Origin: Phenylobacterium sp.
Lineage (GTDB): Bacteria; Pseudomonadota; Alphaproteobacteria; Caulobacterales; Caulobacteraceae
Length of the DNA stretch: 51,853 bases
Reading direction: 5' to 3'
Assembly (NCBI RefSeq): GCF_016793225.1
Contig: NZ_JAEUMN010000051.1
Location: 1-51,853, forward strand
In this document: one piece after another, positions 9,288 through 32,387 of the stretch
Layout: each line of letters begins with the position of its first letter
Position numbering within the stretch: position 1 is the stretch's first letter
The notes under the pieces: generated by a model
The model's input: the letters and a program-made list of their open reading frames with translations, nothing else
Told to the model about the DNA's origin: nothing
Databases searched by the model: none
Translations under genes and position numbers: made by a program

Positions 9288-10160
9288 ATGAGGAAAGGGC
9301 TCGTTCTCGCCGGCGGCGCCGGCACCCGCCTTCACCCGCTGACCATGGCGACGTCGAAGCAGCTGCTGCCGGTCTACGACAAGCCGATGATCTACTATCC
9401 GCTGTCGGTGCTGTTCCTGGCCGGCATCCGGGAAATCCTGATCATCACGACCGAAGAGGATCAGGCCGGCTTCAAGCGCCTGCTGGGCGACGGCTCGCGT
9501 TTCGGCGTCCGGTTCGAATATGTGATCCAGCCGCATCCGGGCGGCCTGGCCGAGGCGTACCTGCTGGGCGAGGACTTCGTCGGCGGCCAGCCGTCCACCC
9601 TGATCCTGGGCGACAACATCTTCTTCGGGCAGAACTTCGTGCAGATGCTGAAGAACGCCGACGCCCGGACCGAGGGCGCCACGGTGTTCGGCTATCCGGT
9701 GCACGACCCCGAGCGCTACGGCGTGGTCGAGCTTTCGGCGGACGGCCGGGCGCTCTCCATCGAGGAAAAGCCCGCGAACCCCAAGTCCAACTACGCGGTG
9801 ACGGGGCTCTACTTCTACGATGGCCGCGCCAGCGAGATCGCCAAGACCCTGACCCGCTCGGCCCGCGGCGAACTCGAGATCACGGCGCTGAACGACGTCT
9901 ACCTGCAGGAAGGCCGGCTGCACGTCGAGCTGCTGGGTCGCGGCTTCGCCTGGGAGGACGCCGGTACGCATGACAGCCTGATCGGCGCCGGCGAGCTGAT
10001 CCGCGTCTTCGAACAGCGCCAGGGCCTGCGCATCGGCTGCCTCGAAGAGATCGCCTTCGAGAACGGCTGGATCGACCGATCCGAACTGCTCAAGTCCGCC
10101 GAAGTCCAGGGCAAGAGCGAGTACGGCCGTTACCTGCGTGAACTGGCGGGGAGGGGCTGA
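9288..10160 (+). CDS. rfbA: Glucose-1-phosphate thymidylyltransferase
   Basis: This 290-residue enzyme makes dTDP-glucose from dTTP and glucose 1-phosphate, supplying RfbB just upstream. It shows the nucleotidyltransferase signature [11 protein letters not shown] with [18 protein letters not shown], the metal-site LGDNIFFG and the [20 protein letters not shown] segment. Length and motifs are those of the long RmlA form. It opens the exopolysaccharide locus. Confidence 0.95.
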
Positions 10161-10224
10161 GAACTGAATGCCGCAGCACTCGCCATGCGAGCAGGACGCT
10201 GTTAGGCATGAGCATACGAACCTT

Positions 10225-10250
10225 GCTTCGAAGCGCGGGCGATCGCCTGC
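10225..10250. promoter_or_regulatory. Tandem palindromes upstream of sigma-54 promoter
   Basis: A perfect 10-bp palindrome GCTTCGAAGC (10225-10234) is followed directly by a second perfect 10-bp palindrome GGCGATCGCC (10238-10247), itself inside a wider imperfect one. They lie about 40 and 25 nt upstream of the -24/-12 element at 10265. They could bind an enhancer-binding protein or repressor, though such enhancer sites usually lie further upstream. Palindromes of this length are not rare in GC-rich DNA. Confidence 0.25.
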
Positions 10251-10264
10251 GCCCACGGCCAAGG

Positions 10265-10281
10265 CTGGAACGGAATTTGCA
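10265..10281 (+). promoter_or_regulatory. Sigma-54 (RpoN) promoter for the EpsD-family gene
   Basis: The sequence CTGGAACGGAATTTGCA matches the RpoN consensus YTGGCACGRNNNTTGCW with a single mismatch (C to A inside the -24 element). The GG and GC dinucleotides have the required 10-nt spacing. Transcription would begin near 10292, giving a ~25-37 nt leader before the gene starting at 10317 or 10329. In other PEP-CTERM bacteria, sorting genes are under RpoN and the PrsK/PrsR system, which fits. Confidence 0.72.
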
Positions 10282-10316
10282 GCAGATCGCCCGGGGCCCG
10301 TAGGCTGGTCCTGATC

Positions 10317-11267
10317 ATGGAGGGGCGCTTGAAGACTAGAGCACTAATCGTGGTGGCTGCAGTCAGCGTGGGACTCACGCTTTCGGGTTGCGACCAGGTG
10401 CGCCGCCTGGCGGGCGGGGGCAAGGCCGAGGGCCAGGTCGTCGCCACCGTCGACGGCCAGGAGATCACCAGCCTAGAGCTGCGCACCGAACTCGGTAACT
10501 TCGCGTCTCGCGACCCCAACGTGATGAAGGCGGCGCAGCAGCAGGCGTTGCAGCGGATCATCATGCGCAAGCTGATGGCCGCCGAGGCGCGCGAACAGAA
10601 GCTGGACAAGAGCGCCGAGTACAACCTGCAGGTCGCCCGGGGCGAAGAGGCGCTGCTGGGGTCCCTCCTGCAGCGCAAGATGGCCAGCAAGGCCGCCCAG
10701 CCGACCAAGGCTCAGGCTCAGGCCTACGTCGCCGCGCACCCCGAGAAGTTCGGCGAGCGGAAGGTGATGTTCGTCGACCAGATCATCGCGGCGCCGAACA
10801 AGATCTCGCCTGACCGGTTCCAGCCGCTCAAGACCATGGACGAGGTCAAGGCGCTGCTGAACAGCGAAGGCGTCCAGTACCAGGAGAATGCGGTGGTGCT
10901 CGACACCCTGTCGGCCAATCCGCGGCTCGTGCAGGGCGTGAACAACCTGCCGCCGGGCGAGATCTTCGTGATCCCGCAGGGCGGCGCGATCCTCTTCAAC
11001 CGCGTGACCGCCTCGCGGGCGGTGCCGTTCGGCGGCGACGCCTCCGTGGCCTACGCCATGAACGCGTTGCGGCAGGAGCGCGCGCAGGAGCTGGTCGGCA
11101 AGCAGCTGGCCGACATGCGCAAGGCGGCGGAGCCGAAGATCACCTACAATGCGGCGTTCAAGCCGCCGCCGGAGAAGAAGCCGGGCGCCGCCCCGGCCGC
11201 CAAGCCGGCCGCCGCCCCGGCGGCGCCGGCGCCGGCGGCTCCGGCCGCGGAACCGGCCGCCAAGTAG
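10317..11267 (+). CDS. epsD: EpsD-family peptidyl-prolyl isomerase-like lipoprotein
   Basis: This 316-residue exported protein has a lipoprotein signal (ALIVVAAVSVGLTLSGC) followed by a SurA-like N-terminal chaperone domain (VVATVDGQEITSLELR) and a parvulin-like region, then an Ala/Pro/Lys tail of ~45 residues. It resembles the EpsD family of foldases that accompany exosortase and exopolysaccharide loci; the role would be folding or delivery of exported proteins in the periplasm. TTG 10329, with GGAGGGG just upstream, is a credible alternative start and gives a tighter signal peptide. A sigma-54 promoter lies in front, and a strong terminator follows. Confidence 0.8.
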   Translation: MEGRLKTRALIVVAAVSVGLTLSGCDQVRRLAGGGKAEGQVVATVDGQEITSLELRTELGNFASRDPNVMKAAQQQALQRIIMRKLMAAEAREQKLDKSAEYNLQVARGEEALLGSLLQRKMASKAAQPTKAQAQAYVAAHPEKFGERKVMFVDQIIAAPNKISPDRFQPLKTMDEVKALLNSEGVQYQENAVVLDTLSANPRLVQGVNNLPPGEIFVIPQGGAILFNRVTASRAVPFGGDASVAYAMNALRQERAQELVGKQLADMRKAAEPKITYNAAFKPPPEKKPGAAPAAKPAAAPAAPAPAAPAAEPAAK

Positions 11268-11287
11268 CGAGCCGCTCAGTCACGAAA

Positions 11288-11317
11288 AAGGGCCGGCGGG
11301 GAGACCCGCCGGCCCTT
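11288..11317. terminator. Bidirectional intrinsic terminator
   Basis: A perfect 13-bp stem (AAGGGCCGGCGGG at 11288-11300 with its complement at 11305-11317) closes a GAGA tetraloop. It is flanked by an A-run on the left and TTGTCTTTT on the right, so it can terminate both the EpsD-family gene (plus) and the converging ATPase gene (minus). Confidence 0.9.
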
Positions 11318-11343
11318 GTCTTTTGGCGTTGCCGCGACCCGAA

Positions 11344-12738
11344 CTAAGAGACCGCCGTCGCGGTGCGGGCCGGCGCCGCCGGCGGCGCCTCGCGGTTCAG
11401 GTTCCGCTGGGCCCACATCATCCAGATGAGCGTCGGGAGCCCTTCCTCCACGAAGGCGTAGCGCTGGTTCACGTCCTCGCCCTGCACCGGCCGGAGCAGG
11501 CGCTCGCCCACCAGCACCTCGATCGCATCCTGCGCCTTGCGCGCGGTGATCTCGTTCGCGGTCTCGATATCTCGACCGTCGAAGACGCCGTCCGCGGCCA
11601 GGGCGGCTCGCGCCGACATCGCCAGCGCATCCTGCCGCCCCTGGTCGAACAGCCGCCGGACCTGGGTTTGCGCCGGCGTGGGGATGCGGCCCTGGAACTC
11701 AAGGATCGCGCGGTCGACGGCGCTCGCGACGTCCACGGGCGACACGGTCGCGCGGCCCTGGTCGAGCGCCGCGTGGCCGGCGTGGTGGCAGATCAGGTTC
11801 GCGATGTACGGAGAGCCCCGCGCGACCTCGACCACGAAGGCTCCGGCCTGGCTGTCGAACTTCAGGTCGGCCTCACGTTCGCCGTTGGCGACGATCTGCA
11901 TGACCTCGCCCTCGCTCATCTTCGGCACGCGCAGGGCGAAGATGTTGCGGCGGATCGAGGGGATGTGTTCGACGAGCTCGGTCAGGTCGGCGGCGACGCC
12001 GGCCAGCACCAGCTGCACCCGGCCCAGACGGTCCGAGAGGTTCTTGATCAGCTCGGCCACGTCGCGGCGGAATGACCCGGACTCCGCCCGGTCGAACTCG
12101 TCCAGGATGATGAGCACCCGCGTGCCGGTCAGCTTGGCGCACAGGTCGCCGAACTTGCGCGGCGACAGCGGTTCGCTGGGCAGGAGGTCGGCGAGGGTCG
12201 AGCCCTTCTCCGTCTCGGCCGCGGTCGGCGAGAACCCGGAGTGGAACAGCAGCGGAATCTCGGCCGCCGCGGCGCGGAAGGTCTCGTCGAAGTTCGAGTT
12301 CGCGCCGCACGACGTATAGACGACGATGTATCGCGCCTCGTTGGCGGCCTGGCTCAGCACATGCAGCAGCGAGGTCTTGCCGATCCCGCGCTCGCCGTAG
12401 AGCACCACGTGCAGCCGCTGGTCCTCGATGGCGCGGATCACGGTCTTCAGCACGTCGTCGCGGCCGGCGAACAGCCGTCGATCGGCCACGGGCTGAGACG
12501 GCGTGAACGCATGGCGCAGCTTGGCCCGGACGGCGCTGAAGCGATCACCGCCGCGCCCGCTCATCTGGTCGCTGGCGGTAGTGTTGAAGCGGGGAAGGCC
12601 GCCGGCGTCGTTCGCCCGACGGTGGGCCTCGCGGATCAAGGGCTTCACGATCGACGGCTGCGCCTGCGTCTCGGCGCGCGCGGCCTTCGTCGGGGCTTTC
12701 CGCTTGAAGGGATTCCAGCCTGCCAAGTCGATCTCCAT
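11344..12738 (-). CDS. AAA family ATPase (AAA_16/Orc1-like)
   Basis: This 464-residue cytoplasmic protein has a basic, low-complexity N-terminus (~70 residues), then an AAA ATPase module: FAGRDDVL entry, Walker A GERGIGKTS (Lys121), Walker B VLIILDEFD, and a helical lid. The C-terminal part (~350-450) looks like a winged-helix region (DAIEVLVGERLLRPV). It resembles regulatory or loader ATPases of the AAA_16 group more than transporters; no membrane segment is seen. It sits between the EpsD-family gene and the PEP-CTERM gene but points the other way, away from both sigma-54 promoters. A role in the sorting system is inferred from position only. Confidence 0.75.
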   Translation of the reverse strand: MEIDLAGWNPFKRKAPTKAARAETQAQPSIVKPLIREAHRRANDAGGLPRFNTTASDQMSGRGGDRFSAVRAKLRHAFTPSQPVADRRLFAGRDDVLKTVIRAIEDQRLHVVLYGERGIGKTSLLHVLSQAANEARYIVVYTSCGANSNFDETFRAAAAEIPLLFHSGFSPTAAETEKGSTLADLLPSEPLSPRKFGDLCAKLTGTRVLIILDEFDRAESGSFRRDVAELIKNLSDRLGRVQLVLAGVAADLTELVEHIPSIRRNIFALRVPKMSEGEVMQIVANGEREADLKFDSQAGAFVVEVARGSPYIANLICHHAGHAALDQGRATVSPVDVASAVDRAILEFQGRIPTPAQTQVRRLFDQGRQDALAMSARAALAADGVFDGRDIETANEITARKAQDAIEVLVGERLLRPVQGEDVNQRYAFVEEGLPTLIWMMWAQRNLNREAPPAAPARTATAVS

Positions 12739-12922
12739 CTCCGCGCGCGAGGGCCCACAGGGAACGCCTACGCGCGCGCCCAGCGCACGGATGCCTTTTC
12801 GCCCGGCGCTGCCTTCTGTTTACTTAATGGCATTCCGAAGGCGAATCGGCGACTCCGGGCGCGCCCCCGTGCGCCGCGATTCGCTCAAGCTTCTCGCCAG
12901 TGAGACTTGGTCGTGATAATTT

Positions 12923-12938
12923 GTGGTACGGATCTTGC
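12923..12938 (+). promoter_or_regulatory. Sigma-54 (RpoN) promoter for the PEP-CTERM gene
   Basis: TGGTACG-GATC-TTGC (12924-12938) fits the -24/-12 consensus TGGCACG-N4-TTGC with one C-to-T change, and GG and GC are 10 nt apart. Transcription would start near 12950, leaving a ~158-nt leader before the ATG at 13108. The similarity to the element at 10265 supports common RpoN control. Confidence 0.72.
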
Positions 12939-12951
12939 GTCCAACCGCACG

Positions 12952-12976
12952 GCTGGTGCGAATATGCATCACCAGC
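12952..12976 (+). promoter_or_regulatory. Inverted repeat at predicted transcript start
   Basis: GCTGGTG (12952-12958) and CACCAGC (12970-12976) form 7-bp arms around an 11-nt spacer. Because the predicted RpoN start is ~12950, this would fold at the very 5' end of the PEP-CTERM mRNA, where such hairpins protect from decay; it could instead be an operator. Confidence 0.35.
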
Positions 12977-13107
12977 GGCTCGGAAAGGGCAGCAGGATCG
13001 GGGCTTTTTCTGGCGACAGGGTCATTCGACTCGCCTGCTAGGGGAAGGGTGATGACAGGGTCTTCGCCCCCTCCTAGAGTGAACGATAAGTTAAATGGGG
13101 TGCTGAC

Positions 13108-13776
13108 ATGAAAACCATTACCAAGCTTCTGGCCGGCGCAGCGGTCGCTCTCTCGATGAGCGCGGCTTCGGCGCAAGCCGCTGTCTTCATCGGTCTCTCG
13201 ACCGATGGCGGCGCGACCATCACGCAGGTGTTCTCGGGCGGCGACGCCACCTTCGAGTACCTGACCACGAACCTCGGCGGCTTCGACACGATCAGCGTCG
13301 AAGGCGACCCGTCGATCCTGCCCGCTCTCCTCCACAGCGATGTGGTGAACGTGAACGCGAGCGGCGCGGCCAGCGTGTCGATCTTCGTCACGCGGACGGG
13401 CATCTCGGCGCCGACCTACGGCGGGTTCTTCTCGAGCTTCTCGAGCAACAACTCGAACAACCGCTTCACGGTCGTGACCTCCACCTACGTGGACGACGAC
13501 GACGACGTGTTCGGTCTGGACACGCTGCTCGCCAGCTCGACGTTCTCGGCGTCGGGTTCGCAGTCCTCGAACTTCATCTCTCCGGGCGCGGTTCCGGATG
13601 GCGTGTTCTCGGTGACCAACCGCTACGACATCTCCACGACGGGCGGCGGCACCACCTCGCCGACGATCATCCTCGGCGCGGTTCCGGAACCCGGCACCTG
13701 GGCCCTGATGATCATGGGCTTCGGCGGCGCCGGCGCCATGATCCGCAGCCGCCGTCGCCAGATGGCCGCTGCCTAA
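13108..13776 (+). CDS. PEPxxWA-CTERM sorting domain protein
   Basis: This 222-residue exported protein starts with a Sec signal peptide (KLLAGAAVALSMSAASAQA) and ends with the alphaproteobacterial sorting tail: VPEPGTWALMIMGFG, a short hydrophobic helix, then RSRRRQ. Proteins with this tail are cut and handed on by a cognate exosortase, here probably the one at 22767. The mature part is Ser/Thr/Asn-rich and acidic, with a run of six Asp after residue ~128, and has no domain I recognise; such proteins are usually surface or matrix components of exopolysaccharide-producing cells. It has its own sigma-54 promoter and terminator, so it is a single-gene unit. Confidence 0.93.
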   Translation: MKTITKLLAGAAVALSMSAASAQAAVFIGLSTDGGATITQVFSGGDATFEYLTTNLGGFDTISVEGDPSILPALLHSDVVNVNASGAASVSIFVTRTGISAPTYGGFFSSFSSNNSNNRFTVVTSTYVDDDDDVFGLDTLLASSTFSASGSQSSNFISPGAVPDGVFSVTNRYDISTTGGGTTSPTIILGAVPEPGTWALMIMGFGGAGAMIRSRRRQMAAA

Positions 13777-13806
13777 ATCCAGCCTTAACGGCTGACGAGA
13801 ATACTG

Positions 13807-13834
13807 AGCCGCCGCTCCTGCCGGAGCGGCGGCT
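13807..13834 (+). terminator. Intrinsic terminator after PEP-CTERM gene
   Basis: A perfect 12-bp stem (AGCCGCCGCTCC at 13807-13818 with its complement at 13823-13834) has a 4-nt loop and is followed by a short TTTCGT. It separates the PEP-CTERM gene from the Wzz-like gene downstream. Confidence 0.8.
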
Positions 13835-13914
13835 TTCGTATGTCGGGGCCGTTCGCCTGTTCACGGTGCGGGCGTCACCACGTATACAGCCCCGATGCCG
13901 ACGCGGAGTCCGTG

Positions 13915-15270
13915 ATGAAGTTGCCGCCGATCCTGTCCATCATCTGGGCGCGTCGGGCGGTGTTCGCGGTTCCGGTCGTGGGCGCCCTGATCGGCTCCAG
14001 CATCGCCATGGCGGTGACGCCCCCGCGCTACATGGCGTCGGCCCGCGTCGTCCTGAACTACATCAAGCCGGACGCTGAGACCGGCATCGTGGTGAACTCG
14101 AAGATGGTCGAGACCTACGAGAAGACTCAGATCGACTTTCTGCGCGAACCCGAGGTTTCCGCGCTGGCCGCCGAGGCCATGGGGTGGCTCGACCTTCCCG
14201 AGATGCAGGAAGCCTATGCGCTTCGCGACCCGCAGGACACGCGGGACATGGCGACCTGGGCCGCGGCGCGCCTGATGGGCGGCATCAGCGCGGTCATGGT
14301 CGAAGACAGCAACATCCTCGAGGTGCGCTACACGGCGGCGAGTCCCGAAATGGCGACGGCCATGGTGGGCGCCATTCGCGACGCCTACCTGCAGGCGAGC
14401 ACCAATCAGCTGCGCCGGTCCGCCGAGGAACGCGCCAATGCGAACGCACTCCGGCTGCGGGAATCCAACAAGCGCCTCGCGGAGTTGGAAGCGCAGAAGA
14501 CGCGCGTCGAGCGCGCCACGGGCCTGATCCTCGACGCCAGCAGGCGAGAGCTGGACGCGGCGAAGCTCGCCAACCTGGCATCAGCCAGGCCTCGGGCGCC
14601 CGTGGTCGATCCCGGGCAGGGCAGGCCGAGCGTCCAGGCCAACAACCTCGCGGCCGTGGACGCGGCGATCGCATCGCGCGCAGGGGGCCTCGGCCCCAAC
14701 CACCCGCAGTACCAGGCCATGCTGAGGCAACGCGAGCAGGCCAAGGCCATGGCCGAGCAGGCCGGCCAGCGTGAGAACGCGTTCAGCTCGTTCTTCCAGA
14801 GCCAGGCCCGCGCCGAGGCGGCCCTGTTCGAGGCGCTCAAGGCCAAGGTGCTCTCCCAGCGGCCGGACGCCCTGCAGTTGAAGCTGCTGCAGGATCAGAT
14901 CGACAGGGAACGCGAGATTGCGACGAGCCTTGCCGAGAGCACGGCCGAGGAACGTCAGGGTTCCACGGGCGAGCAGTCCGGACTGATTCCGATCGGCGAG
15001 CCGTCGGAAGCCAGGGAGTCGATCCGCAGCAATTCCACGTTGATCATATCGACGGCCGTCGCGATGGGCGTCCTCTACGGAGCCCTGCTGGCGCTGCTCG
15101 TCGAGTTCCTCGCGCGGCAGGTCCGGTCCGCCGAGGCGCTGCAGGCGGCGGCGAGCGCGCCGGTGCTCGGTGTCGTGCCGCGCAATCGTCGTCGAGGTCC
15201 GCCTCGTCGCGGCCGCTGGCCGAAGCCGCGACGCCTGCCGGCAGGCCGGGCTGCGGCTGTCCAGGCATGA
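13915..15270 (+). CDS. Wzz/GumC-family polysaccharide chain length determinant (copy 1)
   Basis: This 451-residue inner-membrane protein has one N-terminal transmembrane helix (VFAVPVVGALIGSSIAMAV), a periplasmic Wzz domain with a long coiled coil (~170-370), and a C-terminal helix (LIISTAVAMGVLYGALLALL) just before the basic cytoplasmic end. Such proteins set polymer length and couple to a BY-kinase. It is clearly paralogous to the protein at 20690: IKPD, KTQI and the SNILEVRY/SNILEITY segment align. The start is ATG 13915, preceded by GCGGAG; the frame is open to 13840. It overlaps the next gene by 4 nt. Confidence 0.87.
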   Translation: MKLPPILSIIWARRAVFAVPVVGALIGSSIAMAVTPPRYMASARVVLNYIKPDAETGIVVNSKMVETYEKTQIDFLREPEVSALAAEAMGWLDLPEMQEAYALRDPQDTRDMATWAAARLMGGISAVMVEDSNILEVRYTAASPEMATAMVGAIRDAYLQASTNQLRRSAEERANANALRLRESNKRLAELEAQKTRVERATGLILDASRRELDAAKLANLASARPRAPVVDPGQGRPSVQANNLAAVDAAIASRAGGLGPNHPQYQAMLRQREQAKAMAEQAGQRENAFSSFFQSQARAEAALFEALKAKVLSQRPDALQLKLLQDQIDREREIATSLAESTAEERQGSTGEQSGLIPIGEPSEARESIRSNSTLIISTAVAMGVLYGALLALLVEFLARQVRSAEALQAAASAPVLGVVPRNRRRGPPRRGRWPKPRRLPAGRAAAVQA

Positions 15271-16031
15271 GGCTGTTCCGGAAGCGTAGATCCGCCGACG
15301 CTCAGAAGGTCACGGACAACCGCACGCCGGCGCGCCCCAGCGTTTCCCCGCCGCCGCCGGCCGCTGTCGCATCGGCGGATGCGCTGCCGATTTCGTACAC
15401 CTACGGACCCGACCTCCTGCTCCTGAGCTCGGCGTCGAGCCGCGCCGCCGTCGCCATCCGCCAGACCGCGCTCGAGCTGATAGCGCACCACGTCAGCCGC
15501 GGTCGCCGCTCCCTGGCGCTCTGTGGCGTTGCGCGCGGGGCCGGCGTCAGCTTCCTCTCGATCAACCTGGCCCTCGCGCTGGCGATGGACGGCGTCTCGA
15601 CGCTGGTGATCGACGCCGACCTGGATCAGCCCTCGCTCGAGACCTTCATCCAGCCGAGCCACGAGACGGCGGGCCTGCGCGAGTACCTTCTCGACCCCGA
15701 GGTGACCTCATCGGACGTGATCCACCGCGATGTCGTCGCGAACCTCTCGGTGATCTATGCGGGTGGGCCCAGCGAGATCGCCTCCGAACTGATCGGGCAG
15801 GCGCGATTTGCGGACCTGGTCCGCGCCTGCATGCGCGACCATGACCTTGTGATCATCGACACGCCGCCCGCCAGCCTTTCGGCCAGCACGAGGCGCATCG
15901 CGGCGGTCGCGCACTACGCCCTGGTCGTGGCGCGGTCGGGCGCAAGCCACGTGGACGGGGTGGAGGTCCTCTCCCGGTCCCTGAAGGAGGACGGTGTCGA
16001 AATCGTAGGGTCGGTGCTGAACGCCGTCTGA
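15267..16031 (+). CDS. BY-kinase-like P-loop protein lacking Walker A lysine (copy 1)
   Basis: This 254-residue protein has the fold signature of CpsD/CapB/Wzc kinase domains: the P-loop position GVARGAGVSFLSINLA, Walker A' TLVIDADLDQP, and Walker B LVIIDTPPA. In active BY-kinases the P-loop reads GxGK(S/T); here the lysine is Val94. There is also no C-terminal tyrosine cluster. It is therefore probably a non-catalytic partner of the Wzz protein encoded immediately upstream (4-nt overlap). It is paralogous to the protein at 22039, which has its own different loss of the lysine. Confidence 0.85.
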   Translation: MRLFRKRRSADAQKVTDNRTPARPSVSPPPPAAVASADALPISYTYGPDLLLLSSASSRAAVAIRQTALELIAHHVSRGRRSLALCGVARGAGVSFLSINLALALAMDGVSTLVIDADLDQPSLETFIQPSHETAGLREYLLDPEVTSSDVIHRDVVANLSVIYAGGPSEIASELIGQARFADLVRACMRDHDLVIIDTPPASLSASTRRIAAVAHYALVVARSGASHVDGVEVLSRSLKEDGVEIVGSVLNAV

Positions 16032-20689: not shown

Positions 20690-22042
20690 ATGAGCATCCT
20701 GCAATTTCTTAGGATCGTCTGGGCCAACCGGATGCTCATCCTGGGCAGCACGATCGTTTGCTTCGCGCTGGCGTTCCTGACGGTCCAGCTGGTGCCGCCG
20801 CGGTACGAGGCTCGCTCGCGGGTGATGCTGGATGTCATCAAGCCGGACCCTGTGACTGGTCAGGTGATGGCGACGGCGTTCCTGCGCGCGTACACCAAGA
20901 CGCAGATCGAGCTGGTCAAGGACCAGCAGGTCGCGCGCCGGGTCGTCGAGGACCTGAACTGGGCCAACGACCCCAATTTCCAACGCCGCTACCGCGAGCG
21001 CCGCGGCGACGAGGATCTCGACTTCCAGCGCTGGGCCGCTCAGCAGGTCGTCAAGGGCGCCGATGCGAGCCTCATCCAGGGCAGCAACATCCTCGAGATC
21101 ACGTATTCCTCGTCCTCGGCCGCCGAGACCAAGATCGTGGCCGACGCGCTGCGCAAGGCCTACATGGACATGACCCTGCAGTCGCGTCGGGAAACCGCGC
21201 GGCGGAATGCGGAGTGGTACGAGAACCAGGCCGAGAAGGCGAAGTCGGTCCTGTTCCAGGCCGAGGCCGCCAAGTCGGACTACGAGCGCCAGAACGGCGT
21301 CTTCCTGCAGGACGACAAGGTCGACATCGACAGCGCCCGACTGGCCGCCCTGGCCTCCCAGGGCTCGACGCCGATGGTCGCGCCTTCCGCAGGCGTGGAT
21401 ATCCAGAGCGCCACGCAGCTCGCGGCGCTGGACGCCGAGATCACCGAGGCGTCGAAGTCGATGGGCCCCAACCACCCCACGCTGCAGGCGCTGAAGCGGC
21501 GCCGCGAGGTGCTGGCGCAGCAGGTGGCCCAGTCGCGTAACGCCTCCTCGGCCGCAGCCAGCGCCGCGCTCAGCGCCGCGCGCGCCACCAGCGGAATGCT
21601 CGAGGCCCAGAAGGCCAAGGTCATGGCGCAGCGCGACAAGGTCGAGCGCTTGCGGGTCATGCAGGCCGAGATCGACCTCCGCCGCGACCAGTACAACAAG
21701 GCGATGATCCGCGCCGCCCAGCTGCGGCAGGAAGCGGACGTGACCGAGTCGGGCGTGATCCCGCTGGGCAGCGCCATCACGCCTCAGCAGCCCGAGTTCC
21801 CCAAGAAGGGCCTCATCATGGGCGCGGCCCTTGCCGGGGGCGCCGGGCTCGGCGCGTTCATCGGCCTCCTGGCCGAGCTGTTCGGCCGCAGGGTGCGAAG
21901 CGCGGAGGACCTCGCGCTCGCGATCGACGCGCCCGTGCTCGCCATCATCCGCAACCCGGCCAAGACGCCGAAGCGGAAGTCGATGTTCGCGCTGCCGTCG
22001 CTCGCAGCGCCGCTGCTGCGCCGCAGGGTGGTGCGTGCATGA
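20690..22042 (+). CDS. Wzz/GumC-family polysaccharide chain length determinant (copy 2)
   Basis: This 450-residue protein has an N-terminal transmembrane helix (MLILGSTIVCFALAFLTVQLV), a Wzz periplasmic domain (YEARSRVMLDVIKPDP), a long coiled coil (~160-340), and a C-terminal helix (GLIMGAALAGGAGLGAFIGLL) with a basic tail. The PQQPEFPKKG motif just before the last helix is typical of the GumC group and is missing from copy 1. It overlaps the kinase-like gene by 4 nt, as copy 1 does. Confidence 0.9.
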   Translation: MSILQFLRIVWANRMLILGSTIVCFALAFLTVQLVPPRYEARSRVMLDVIKPDPVTGQVMATAFLRAYTKTQIELVKDQQVARRVVEDLNWANDPNFQRRYRERRGDEDLDFQRWAAQQVVKGADASLIQGSNILEITYSSSSAAETKIVADALRKAYMDMTLQSRRETARRNAEWYENQAEKAKSVLFQAEAAKSDYERQNGVFLQDDKVDIDSARLAALASQGSTPMVAPSAGVDIQSATQLAALDAEITEASKSMGPNHPTLQALKRRREVLAQQVAQSRNASSAAASAALSAARATSGMLEAQKAKVMAQRDKVERLRVMQAEIDLRRDQYNKAMIRAAQLRQEADVTESGVIPLGSAITPQQPEFPKKGLIMGAALAGGAGLGAFIGLLAELFGRRVRSAEDLALAIDAPVLAIIRNPAKTPKRKSMFALPSLAAPLLRRRVVRA

Positions 22043-22761
22043 GTTCGTCGCCGCGTCCGCAGCCGGTCCAGCCGCCGGAGAACCCGATCGAACGTCAGCT
22101 TCCCGATGACGAAACGCGGCAGCGTTACGAGCTGTCCGCCGATCTCGTGACCATTTCGGACTCTCGCCCCACCGAGGCCGAGGCGATCCGCACCGTGCGC
22201 ACCCACATGGTCGCCCGGCACCTGGAAGACGGCCGCCGCGGCCTTTCCGTGGCCGCGCCGACGTCGGGCGTCGGCTGCACCTATACGGCGGTGAACTTGG
22301 CGGTGGCGCTGTCCCAAGTTGGGATTTCGACGCTCCTTATCGACGCGGATCTTCGTGCGCCGCGGGTCGAGGAGTTCATCCGGCCGGAAATCCCCACCCA
22401 GGGATTGCGACAGTTCCTGGCGGAGGAGGACGGGCGCCTGCACGCCTATGTCCATTCGGACGTCCTGCCGAACCTTTCGGTCCTGTATGCCGGCGGGACG
22501 GCGGAATATCCTCAGGAACTGCTGTCGGGGGAGCCTTTCAAGCGCCTCGTCGACCGTTGCCTTCGTGATTTCCAGTTCACGGTCATCGACACGCCTGCCG
22601 CCGACCTCGGCGCAGACGCCGTCCAGGTCGCTTCGATCGTCGGCTATACCCTCGTGGTCGCGCGCGCCAACGTCACCTTGCTCAGTCAGCTCAGCGACTT
22701 GGCGAGCCAATTGCATGAAGACGGCGCCCGGGTTGTGGGCACGGTGTTGAGCGAGATCTGA
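22039..22761 (+). CDS. BY-kinase-like P-loop protein lacking Walker A lysine (copy 2)
   Basis: This 240-residue protein aligns with BY-kinase catalytic domains: P-loop position APTSGVGCTYTAVNLA, Walker A' TLLIDADLRAP, Walker B FTVIDTPAADL, and the C-terminal VVGTVLSEI. The Walker A lysine is replaced by Cys80 and no terminal tyrosine cluster is present, so ATP-dependent tyrosine phosphorylation is doubtful. It is co-translated with the Wzz copy 2 gene and followed 5 nt later by the exosortase gene. It probably acts as a structural partner that gates the Wzz ring. Confidence 0.87.
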   Translation: MSSSPRPQPVQPPENPIERQLPDDETRQRYELSADLVTISDSRPTEAEAIRTVRTHMVARHLEDGRRGLSVAAPTSGVGCTYTAVNLAVALSQVGISTLLIDADLRAPRVEEFIRPEIPTQGLRQFLAEEDGRLHAYVHSDVLPNLSVLYAGGTAEYPQELLSGEPFKRLVDRCLRDFQFTVIDTPAADLGADAVQVASIVGYTLVVARANVTLLSQLSDLASQLHEDGARVVGTVLSEI

Positions 22762-22766
22762 GGGGC

Positions 22767-23648
22767 ATGAACGCGGCAATAGAGGAACGTGCGCCGGTAG
22801 ACCCGCCGTACGGCCCAATCCTGCGAAACTGGGCGCCCTTGGCGGCCCTCCTGATCATCGGCATTCCGACGATCATCAGGCTTGGCGCGCAGGTCTGGTC
22901 CCAGGAGTTCGGCGCCCATGGGCCGATCGTGCTGGCGACCGGCGCGTGGCTCCTGTGGCGTCAGATTCCGGCCATGTCCGAGACCGGGCGGCCAGGCCAC
23001 ATGGGGCTGACGCTCCTGGCCGTGGCGTTGTCGTTGCCGGTCTATGTGTTCGGCCGCGCGTACGACCTGATCAGCCTCGAGACGGCCGGCGTCTACGGCT
23101 TCGGCGTCGCCCTTCTGCATCAGCGCTTCGGCGTCATGACGCTCCTGAAGAACTGGTTTCCGATCTTCTACCTGGCCCTGCTGCTGCCCATGCCCGGGTG
23201 GTTCTTGGACGAATTCACCGCGCCGCTGAAGCTTCTTGTGTCGGTGATGTCGGCGAGCGTCGTCGAGTTGATGGGAATCCCCCTCGTGCGCGAGGGCGTC
23301 ACCATGACCGTCGGTCCGTACCAGTTGCTGGTGGAAGACGCGTGCTCGGGCCTGAACTCGCTGGTCGGCCTGATCGCCATCACGCTCTTCTACATCTACC
23401 TCCTGCGCAACGCGACGTGGCAGTACTCGCTGTTCCTGGTGTGCATGATCATTCCCATCGCGATCATCGCGAACGCGATCCGCATCGTAATCCTCATTCT
23501 GCTCACCTATTTCTATGGCGACGCCGTCGGCCAAGGCTTCCTGCATGTCACGGCCGGCTTGTTCCTCTTCGCGCTCTCGCTGGTGCTGATGTTCGCGCTC
23601 GACAGCCTGGTTTCGCGCTTCTGGCGGAATGGAAAGGTCGCGGCATGA
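22767..23648 (+). CDS. Exosortase (XrtV-like)
   Basis: This 293-residue inner-membrane protein with about eight hydrophobic helices carries the exosortase catalytic set: Cys193 in EDACSGLNSLVGL, Arg239 in ANAIRIVIL, and His260 in FLHVTAG. Exosortases are transpeptidase-like enzymes that recognise PEP-CTERM tails at the periplasmic membrane face and process the protein for export. The likely substrate is the PEPxxWA protein at 13108. The subtype is inferred from the PEPxxWA tail and the separate EpsI gene that follows with a 4-nt overlap. Confidence 0.92.
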   Translation: MNAAIEERAPVDPPYGPILRNWAPLAALLIIGIPTIIRLGAQVWSQEFGAHGPIVLATGAWLLWRQIPAMSETGRPGHMGLTLLAVALSLPVYVFGRAYDLISLETAGVYGFGVALLHQRFGVMTLLKNWFPIFYLALLLPMPGWFLDEFTAPLKLLVSVMSASVVELMGIPLVREGVTMTVGPYQLLVEDACSGLNSLVGLIAITLFYIYLLRNATWQYSLFLVCMIIPIAIIANAIRIVILILLTYFYGDAVGQGFLHVTAGLFLFALSLVLMFALDSLVSRFWRNGKVAA

Positions 23649-30713: not shown

Positions 30714-32387
30714 GTGGCTGATATTCTCGTGAAGAACCCTGCGGGTTTGAACGCTGCGCTGCAGTCGGCCAAGGCGGGGGATACAATTCGCCTCGCTCCC
30801 GGCAACTACGGCGACGTCTCAATTCAGTCGAAGACCTACGCCACCGACCTCACCATCACGTCGGCCGACCCTTCGAACCCGGCCGTGATGCGCTCGCTGC
30901 TGGTCTACAAGAGCTCCGGCGTGAACGTCGACAACGTGGATGTCAGCTTCGTCCCCAACGAGACGACCTTCGCTCACCACTCGGCGGTGCGCATCAGCGG
31001 CTCCACCGACATCCAGTTCACGAACGGGAAGATCACAGGCGGGCCGGCGGTCACCGGCGTCGCGCAGAGCGCCACGGACCTCGATTCCACGGGCAACGTG
31101 ATCGGGCTGCCCACGGGGCGCGGCGTGACCGTGGAGTGGTCGAAGGACGTCACCATCCAGGCCAACGATGTCAGCAAGTTCCACAAGGGCATCGTGCTGC
31201 ACAGCTCGTCGGAGGTCACGATCCAGGGCAACACCGTCGGCGACGTCCGCACGGGCACGATCTCCGGCGCCAATGTCAGCAACATCAAGGTCGACGGCAA
31301 CACCCTGACGAACTCGCGTCCCTGGCAGTGGGGCAACAACGGCGATCATGCCGACTTCATCCACTTCTGGACCGACGCCAAGCAGACCGGCCCGAGCACC
31401 GGGATCTCCATCACGAACAATAAGATCCTGCAGGGCGATGGCACGGCCATCCTGGGCATCTACCTGGACGACAACGGCAACAATCTCGGGTTCTCGAAGG
31501 CGACCATCTCGAACAACGTCGTCGTCAACGGCAACGCCATCGGCGTGCGGCTGGAGAACACGTTCGACTCGAGCCTCCAGAACAACGTGTTCCTGCAAAG
31601 CAGCGGGACCAGCAAGAACGCGCCCGGCATCTACCTGACGGACAAGACGCACAGCGTCAGCATCACCGGCAATCTGACCGGCTACATCGACGATGTGCAG
31701 GGCACGAACACCAAGTTCATCCAGGACAACACCCAGGTCCAGCGCTTCGACCCCACCAGCGGCGGCTACTACACGTCGTCCCTGGTCGACAGCGTCCTGT
31801 CCACGACGACCGCGTCGCTGACGAAGAGCTCGCTGATGAGCGGCATTTCGGCGCCGACGTCCGAGGTCTCGAGCAAGGCCGTGAGCGCGATCACCCAGAC
31901 CGCCTCCAGCGATCTCGGCGTGAAGCTCACCGCGAAGTCCGCCGACACCAATATCCTCGTCGGTGGAAAAGGCGGGGACACGCTGACCGGCCTCGCCGGG
32001 AACGACTCGCTGTCGGGCGGCGACGGCAACGACCTTCTGAACGGGGGCGTGGGCGCCGACTCGTTACGGGGCGGAGCGGGCGCCGACACCTTCAACTTCG
32101 ACGCCAAGGCGCTCGGGTCGGCGGTCGACACCATCTTCGACTTCCGCGCGGCGGAGGGCGACAAGATCAAGGTCCACTCCATCGACGCGAACGCGACGAC
32201 GGCCGGAGACGACGCGTTCCGCTTCATCGGAACCACCGCCTTCAGCCGGTCGGCGGGCGAGCTGCGCTATGAGGTGAAGGCGGGCGACGCCTACCTGATG
32301 GGCGACGTCAATGGCGACGGCGCGGCCGACTTCTCCATCAAGCTCATCGGCGTTGGAACCCTGACGCGCGCAGACATCATCGGCTGA
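30714..32387 (+). CDS. Secreted beta-helix protein with C-terminal RTX repeats
   Basis: This 557-residue protein has no signal peptide. Residues ~1-330 are a right-handed parallel beta-helix (repeating Asn-rich turns such as ISGSTDIQF, VTIQGNTVGD, ISITNNKIL) with a conserved-looking NNGDHADFIHFW segment. Residues ~415-465 carry RTX nonapeptides (GGxGxDxLx), followed by a DFRAAEGDKI block typical of type I secretion substrates. The pairing recalls secreted lyases or epimerases with R-modules, so action on an extracellular polysaccharide is plausible, but no catalytic triad is certain. The start is GTG 30714 with GGAG ten nt upstream. No type I secretion genes are in the window. Confidence 0.85.
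   Translation: MADILVKNPAGLNAALQSAKAGDTIRLAPGNYGDVSIQSKTYATDLTITSADPSNPAVMRSLLVYKSSGVNVDNVDVSFVPNETTFAHHSAVRISGSTDIQFTNGKITGGPAVTGVAQSATDLDSTGNVIGLPTGRGVTVEWSKDVTIQANDVSKFHKGIVLHSSSEVTIQGNTVGDVRTGTISGANVSNIKVDGNTLTNSRPWQWGNNGDHADFIHFWTDAKQTGPSTGISITNNKILQGDGTAILGIYLDDNGNNLGFSKATISNNVVVNGNAIGVRLENTFDSSLQNNVFLQSSGTSKNAPGIYLTDKTHSVSITGNLTGYIDDVQGTNTKFIQDNTQVQRFDPTSGGYYTSSLVDSVLSTTTASLTKSSLMSGISAPTSEVSSKAVSAITQTASSDLGVKLTAKSADTNILVGGKGGDTLTGLAGNDSLSGGDGNDLLNGGVGADSLRGGAGADTFNFDAKALGSAVDTIFDFRAAEGDKIKVHSIDANATTAGDDAFRFIGTTAFSRSAGELRYEVKAGDAYLMGDVNGDGAADFSIKLIGVGTLTRADIIG

Follow-up and report, generated by a model that had tools for sequence, protein, structure and literature searches.

How does a Phenylobacterium cell control the production of an exosortase substrate and of its likely foldase? 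The window considered here, i.e. the whole stretch of 51,853 nucleotides (nt; 52 kilobases, kb) from Phenylobacterium sp. that was analysed, contains an exosortase V locus (contig 97 of an assembly of 4,599,220 bases in 197 contigs) in which the gene of an EpsD-like lipoprotein, epsD, and that of a PEPxxWA-CTERM protein, here called the PEP gene, are both preceded by a -24/-12 element of the sigma-54 (RpoN) type. To our knowledge, it is poorly understood what triggers exosortase systems physiologically. The original prediction was that the two elements are sigma-54 promoters which induce foldase and substrate together, following the logic of the PrsK/PrsR system, and that the export genes have a different promoter. 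Our analysis makes it probable that epsD and the PEP gene constitute two units with a sigma-54 promoter each, the PEP gene being additionally under the control of a proximal promoter, P2.

Two -24/-12 elements and their conservation

The epsD element (TGGAACGGAATTTGC, 10266-10280) and the PEP-gene element, P1 (TGGTACGGATCTTGC, 12924-12938), both exhibit the GG-N10-GC layout. As had been predicted, the stretches 10265-10281 (CTGGAACGGAATTTGCA) and 12923-12938 (GTGGTACGGATCTTGC) share ACGGA(A/T) between GG and GC, and each element shows a single mismatch to TGGCACGN4TTGC. The bare layout is uninformative, with 699 + 669 GG-N10-GC sites within the window. The pattern TGGNACGNNNNTTGC (TGGNACG-N4-TTGC) has five matches in the assembly and two in a reversed-pattern control; two of the five are the elements in question, which lie on the same strand, 2.66 kb apart and before both named genes, although the count is a soft one because the pattern was fitted to these two sites. 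A relaxed pattern (up to two mismatches to TGGCACGN4TTGCT) is rarer in the genome than its reversed control (153 vs 368 matches), and lone sites of lower quality therefore carry no weight.

The main evidence for two sigma-54-type promoters in this Caulobacterales genome is conservation among relatives. The neighbourhoods of epsD were compared in 13 genomes (our own and 12 relatives), 11 of which have a PEP-CTERM protein match nearby. Seven share the gene order epsD - ATPase - PEP - chain-length gene, and all seven carry a GG-N10-GC, TTGC element 181-185 nt upstream of the PEP start codon: TGGTACGGATCTTGCG in our own genome, TGGCCCGGAGTTTGCA in G060 (at -182, taking 8803 in its locus as the start), CGGAATGAATTTTGCG in G031, CGGCACGAATTTTGCG in G002, TGGCGCCAACCTTGCA in G039, TGGCATGGAGGTTGCA in G009 and TGGCGCCAAGTTTGCA in G057, where G031 and G002 are closely related and thus not independent. 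An ungapped 96-nt alignment of the seven, anchored on the element, has seven invariant columns (GG, A, TTGC), all of them inside it. In six of the seven, our own included, the site is within two mismatches, with a dinucleotide-shuffle chance of at most 0.003 per sequence for a 15-nt interval.

Upstream of epsD, a site within three mismatches at -85 to -36 is present in five of 20 relatives (G039, G009, G057, G089 and L207), compared to a mean of 0.30 in shuffled sequences, none of whose 500 sets reached five. The 20 relatives were taken from 34 genomes with an EpsD match, and both this interval and that of the PEP gene (-190 to -176) were chosen after the sites had been seen. Outside this test, possible epsD sites were noted in L151 (CGGCAAGCTATTTGC) and L154 (CGGCACGAAAATTGC). 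Sixteen distant EpsD loci (L213-L228; Sphingomonas and others) were excluded from the shuffle test; within 300 nt upstream and three mismatches, L220 (at -193) is the only one with a site.

Both elements are preceded by a further motif, termed motif A (consensus CTCGYCA-N14-TGNTA), which was derived by eye from the same relatives, using an alignment that included G089 and excluded L207, L208 and L212. Only three exact copies exist in our genome, namely the two at these genes and a third on contig 195. At epsD the motif is exact in our own genome, G060, G039, G009 and G057 and within two mismatches in G089, G066, L207, L208 and L212; it thus accompanies six of six epsD genes with a sigma-54 site (our own and the five relatives), compared to four of 15 without one. 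As a -35/-10 promoter motif A was rejected, no consistent -10 box being seen behind it by eye. We consider it the best candidate for the binding site of an activator at epsD.

Could all these sites be chance matches? The motifs are short, and the genome holds fewer matches than the reversed controls, both for the relaxed sigma-54 pattern and for motif A at up to one mismatch (34 vs 95). Positional conservation speaks against this, i.e. seven of seven genomes for the PEP gene and five relatives against an expected 0.3 for epsD, so that a chance origin is highly improbable overall and already contradicted for the PEP site. Very likely, both promoters are real and under selection, as judged from comparison of the genomes, with clearer evidence for that of the PEP gene than for that of epsD.

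The prediction of a different promoter for the export genes agrees with the finding that between 13.8 and 27.5 kb, on the + strand, only weaker sites with two mismatches occur (17989, 21820 and 22700), all of them in coding frames. The last of these, TGGCGAGCCAATTGC at 22700-22714, lies 67 nt 5' of the exosortase gene xrtV, within the end of a kinase gene. In three of three relatives checked, no site within three mismatches was found in the 300 nt upstream of xrtV.

A probable second promoter of the PEP gene

Closer to the PEP gene, ten of the 11 genomes (G012 being the one without it) share the layout of P2, in which a TGAC(A/C) box is separated by 17 nt from a box resembling TA(G/C)GGT (TAGAGT in our own genome, TTAAGT in G057), at -56 to -59. 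In these ten an operator-like sequence, CTCGC(C/T)-N4-AGG(G/C)GAA, always starts 22 nt before the -35 box. In our genome its downstream half is AGGGGAAG. Genome-wide, the operator pattern has eight matches within one mismatch, one of them exact, compared to seven in the control. P2 looks like a regulated promoter of the sigma-70 type because its boxes are conserved, its spacing is constant and its spacer is free to vary. An RNA element in the conserved PEP leader was also considered and rejected: Rfam gave only sub-threshold matches for 10100-13200, and constant boxes on either side of a 17-nt spacer that is not conserved speak for a promoter.

The distribution of P2 is broader than that of P1, since G089, G066 and G045 carry P2 without P1. 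In these three and in G012 the PEP gene is located between rmlA and epsD rather than after the ATPase gene, and a sigma-54 site at the usual position is lacking from all four; at -246 of the PEP gene, G045 carries TGGCCCGATATGTGCA.

Since a conserved proximal promoter with an adjacent operator is present, sigma-54 is probably not the sole control of the PEP gene. One could go further and propose that P2 and its operator drive this gene, the upstream -24/-12 element being weak or otherwise used. The hexamer-like boxes, the constant 17-nt spacing and the operator at a fixed distance in ten of 11 PEP genes, including the three without a sigma-54 site at -190 to -176, all fit such a proposal. However, the sequence around P1 has diverged while GG, A and TTGC are unchanged in all seven genomes, and selection on P1 needs a cause; moreover, P2 is silent about epsD. 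Control by P2 without P1 is regarded as unlikely.

The expected joint induction of foldase and substrate by sigma-54 would thus be at most one part of the control of the PEP gene. Each gene has its own sigma-54 element, but the PEP gene also has P2, and three relatives (G060, G031 and G002) retain the PEP site but no good epsD site.

Between the divergent ATPase gene and P1 lies a further conserved block, CCTTCYGTTTRCTTAA, which is kept in all seven genomes and is followed by GANTC in six of them. GANTC is the methylation motif of CcrM. The block may represent a promoter that reads into the divergent gene or else a second binding site of an activator, and a cell-cycle-controlled promoter of the ATPase gene is possible.

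PrsK/PrsR, the PEPxxWA-CTERM set and candidate activators

Haft and colleagues (PMC1569441), in the parts of their account used here, describe a cis-regulatory site before 99 of 167 PEP-CTERM genes, in which motif 1 ends in TTTACA and lies about 63 nt upstream (62.8 +/- 10.6 nt between the motifs) of motif 2, a -24/-12 element. Membership of the two sites in this PrsK/PrsR regulon would account for the element type, and the gap between motif A and the -24 box at epsD, which measures 44-61 nt in five genomes and 68 nt in L207, is in line with the published distance. In our genome, however, neither protein is found above its cut-off, the best matches being 384 bits for PrsR (TIGR02915; cut-off 502.6) and 98.8 bits for PrsK (TIGR02916; cut-off 300), and TTTACA does not occur on either strand of 10161-10328 or 12739-13107, where this end of motif 1, and not its 17-nt logo, was the sequence compared. 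The closest match, TTTACT at 12819, lies some 100 nt 5' of P1. Control by PrsK/PrsR was therefore rejected; it is contradicted unless both genes belong to what the assembly, at 97.5 percent completeness, does not cover, and we regard it as scarcely credible.

As a check on itself, the original prediction named enrichment of sigma-54 sites before PEPxxWA-CTERM genes. With 70 such genes above the NF035944 cut-off, this 4.6-megabase genome encodes a large set of exosortase substrates, and the upstream regions of all 70 (69 loci and that of the window) were compared with shuffled sequences. Sites within one mismatch precede one of the 70 (0.18 in shuffles), sites within two mismatches seven (null 3.0, standard deviation 1.85, largest 8) and sites within three mismatches 14 (null 17.3). 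Start codons were picked automatically in this comparison, those of L021 and L109 being doubtful, and L008, L021 and L032 have less than 400 nt upstream. A genome-wide PEPxxWA sigma-54 regulon is thus rejected, and with it the supposed PrsK/PrsR-like logic; clear sigma-54 control is seen in the upstream sequences only at the PEP gene of the locus, although the small excess at two mismatches means that a few more members are possible. In summary, the RpoN idea holds, the PrsK/PrsR system and the whole PEP-CTERM set drop out, and sigma-54 probably does not control the PEP gene on its own.

Which protein, then, could activate the two promoters? The genome encodes one RpoN (PF04552, E-value 4.8e-69, in a frame of 546 amino acids). 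A search of it with one profile yielded four NtrC-type activators, namely FlbD, NtrC and NtrX above their cut-offs and a fourth under all curated cut-offs shown, which is encoded at C106:14707-16185 and by elimination only may be named a TacA-like response regulator. A loop of the GAFTGA type is present in FlbD (GAFTGA) and in the fourth activator (GSFTGA), and in neither NtrC nor NtrX. Two of 18 sigma-54 sites examined in the genome precede Pfam-confirmed flagellar genes, a flagellin gene (at 87 nt) and a rod gene of the FlgF/G type (at 55 nt). A GG-N10-GC, TTGC element is also located 69 nt 5' of an spmX-like gene, judged by its length, by a lysozyme domain and by membrane segments at the C-terminal end. 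Upstream of this gene (L230, contig 49) a perfect dyad, GTGAC-N4-GTCAC, was observed 5' of the element, which is possibly a TacA site in Phenylobacterium; by eye, no such dyad was seen at the epsD and PEP sites.

From these components the following mechanism may be proposed. RNA polymerase containing RpoN would be poised at the -24/-12 elements, waiting to be opened by an enhancer-binding protein whose loop is of the GAFTGA type. The candidates for this protein are FlbD and the TacA-like response regulator, the only loop holders among the four activators found; at epsD it would bind motif A. P2 and its dedicated operator would give the PEP gene a control independent of sigma-54, and P1 would have been added on top in the lineage in which the PEP gene lies downstream of the ATPase gene. 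The role of the arrangement might be to supply more foldase and more anchored substrate when exopolysaccharide is made.

If FlbD is the activator, the pair would be part of the flagellar hierarchy and not of a stalk or cyclic-di-GMP pathway of the TacA type. FlbD is above its cut-off, has an intact GAFTGA loop and is accompanied by the two flagellar genes with such elements, but none of the 34 motif A matches is found on the contigs of these two sites (C144 and C12), an objection that presumes motif A to be the activator site, which it may not be. We take FlbD as a possible, though doubtful, activator. More speculatively still, a TacA-type regulator, which in Caulobacter is fired via the cyclic-di-GMP-stimulated kinase ShkA, might drive the foldase and one exosortase substrate via RpoN, while the separate operator would keep a sigma-70 promoter available to the substrate gene. 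Motif A was not found before the fourth activator's own gene.

Several observations weigh against the proposed mechanism. Fifteen of the 20 relatives lack a good epsD site, among them the three named above which keep the PEP site, and joint control is therefore not generally conserved. The PEP site of G031 shows four mismatches to TGGCACGN4TTGCW (shuffle chance 0.021), and P2 could drive the PEP gene by itself. At the PEP gene motif A is exact only in our own genome, G031 and G002 (three of seven), has two to three mismatches in three others and is absent from G009; the exact copies end 4-5 nt before the -24 box, which is unusually near for an enhancer site. Before the spmX-like gene, the counterpart of a TacA target in Caulobacter, motif A was not found within two mismatches, the best match having three; taken together with the flagellar contigs, this ties neither candidate activator to motif A. 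Finally, the family of the downstream gene was established for only two of the 18 sigma-54 sites examined and not for the other 16, which leaves the genome's use of sigma-54 only lightly controlled for.

The exosortase V locus and its place among known systems

Besides epsD, the divergent ATPase gene and the PEP gene, the window encodes rmlB, rmlA, two sets of chain-length genes, EpsL- and EpsE-like proteins, exosortase V and an EpsI of type V (235.3 bits, cut-off 228). The coordinates of the features discussed are given in Table 1. With 94.2 bits against the EpsD profile TIGR02925 (equivalog cut-off 108.9), the epsD product is a relative of EpsD and no certified member of that family. The open frame of epsD begins at ATG 10317, but translation probably starts at the alternative TTG 10329, because a ribosome site of the GGAGG type and TTGAAG, or a close variant of it, are conserved there and a lipoprotein-type signal then opens the protein. 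Owing to the hairpins behind them, both epsD and the PEP gene look like single-gene units, and in the parts of their paper considered here Haft and colleagues (PMC1569441) describe most PEP-CTERM genes as such.

Table 1. Features of the exosortase V locus discussed in the text, in window coordinates
Feature	Position	Strand	Remarks
Motif A at epsD, CTCGCCA-N14-TGTTA	10179..10204	+	candidate activator site; 61 nt 5' of -24 element
epsD sigma-54 -24/-12 element, TGGAACGGAATTTGCA	10266..10281	+	transcription start predicted at about 10292
Gene of EpsD-like, peptidyl-prolyl isomerase-like lipoprotein (epsD)	10329..11267	+	lipobox LSGC; SurA_N Pfam match
epsD terminator hairpin	11288..11317	+	13-pair stem, z -5.2, T-rich tail
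Gene of AAA/STAND-type ATPase, divergent	11344..12738	-	PF13191; flanked by epsD and the PEP gene in 7 genomes
Conserved block CCTTCYGTTTRCTTAA...GANTC	12812..12847		5' of P1, between divergent ATPase and PEP genes
Motif A at PEP gene, CTCGCCA-N14-TGATA	12893..12918	+	5 nt 5' of -24 element
P1, sigma-54 -24/-12 element of PEPxxWA gene, TGGTACGGATCTTGCG	12924..12939	+	transcription start predicted at about 12950
Operator, CTCGCC-N4-AGGGGAAG	13030..13047	+	starts 22 nt 5' of P2 -35 box; 10 of 11 PEP genes
P2, proximal sigma-70-type promoter, ATGACA-N17-TAGAGT	13052..13080	+	N17 layout common to 10 of 11 PEP genes
Gene of PEPxxWA-CTERM protein (presumed exosortase substrate)	13108..13776	+	NF035944, 40.7 bits at C-terminus, cut-off 35
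Terminator-like hairpin 3' of PEP gene	13806..13835	+	13-pair stem, z -7.2, short T run
Gene of exosortase V (xrtV), presumed processing enzyme	22767..23648	+	NF035943, 321.6 bits, cut-off 313

Two further observations concern the remainder of the locus. It contains two pairs of EpsF/EpsG-type chain-length and kinase genes (13840-16031 and 20690-22761), and both pairs are also present in G057, G051, G066 and G045. Adjoining the polysaccharide genes, 30714-32387 encodes a protein with matches to parallel beta-helix and serralysin/RTX-type repeats, of which only that to the beta-helix repeat reaches its cut-off; it is perhaps a secreted enzyme acting on polysaccharide.

As far as the published accounts considered here extend, the locus resembles the PrsR/PrsK system (PMC1569441) in its -24/-12 elements, its large intergenic regions, the PEP-CTERM gene adjoining exopolysaccharide genes and, at epsD, a motif about equally far upstream of the element. 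It differs in lacking PrsK and PrsR above cut-off as well as TTTACA, in the single PEPxxWA gene of 70 and in the inclusion of a foldase-like gene. A close parallel is pepA of Aquincola tertiaricarbonis (PMC9850573), likewise a PEP-CTERM gene, whose start was mapped behind TGGCAC...CTGCTT and whose transcription depends on RpoN1, dependence on RpoN being predicted here too; that strain has PrsK/PrsR, and the parts of the report consulted describe no second pepA promoter. With the TacA/FlbD circuits of Caulobacter (PMC10274813, PMC7010744, PMC12421884) our genome shares an inventory of four activators, with a GAFTGA-type loop only in FlbD and the TacA or TacA-like protein, and the element type before the spmX-like gene. 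The targets named in the portions of those reports considered are stalk, polarity and flagellar genes, unlike the present pair, and no exosortase locus is noted among them.

The genes of the likely foldase and of one locus-encoded substrate out of 70 would thus have conserved RpoN promoters, with no PrsK/PrsR pair detectable in the genome, and such a promoter would set the substrate of the locus apart from the bulk of the PEPxxWA proteins. Because two candidate activators can be named among those found, the trigger becomes testable. If the TacA-type reading were true, it would tie the anchoring of surface proteins to a surface-attachment or cell-cycle programme.

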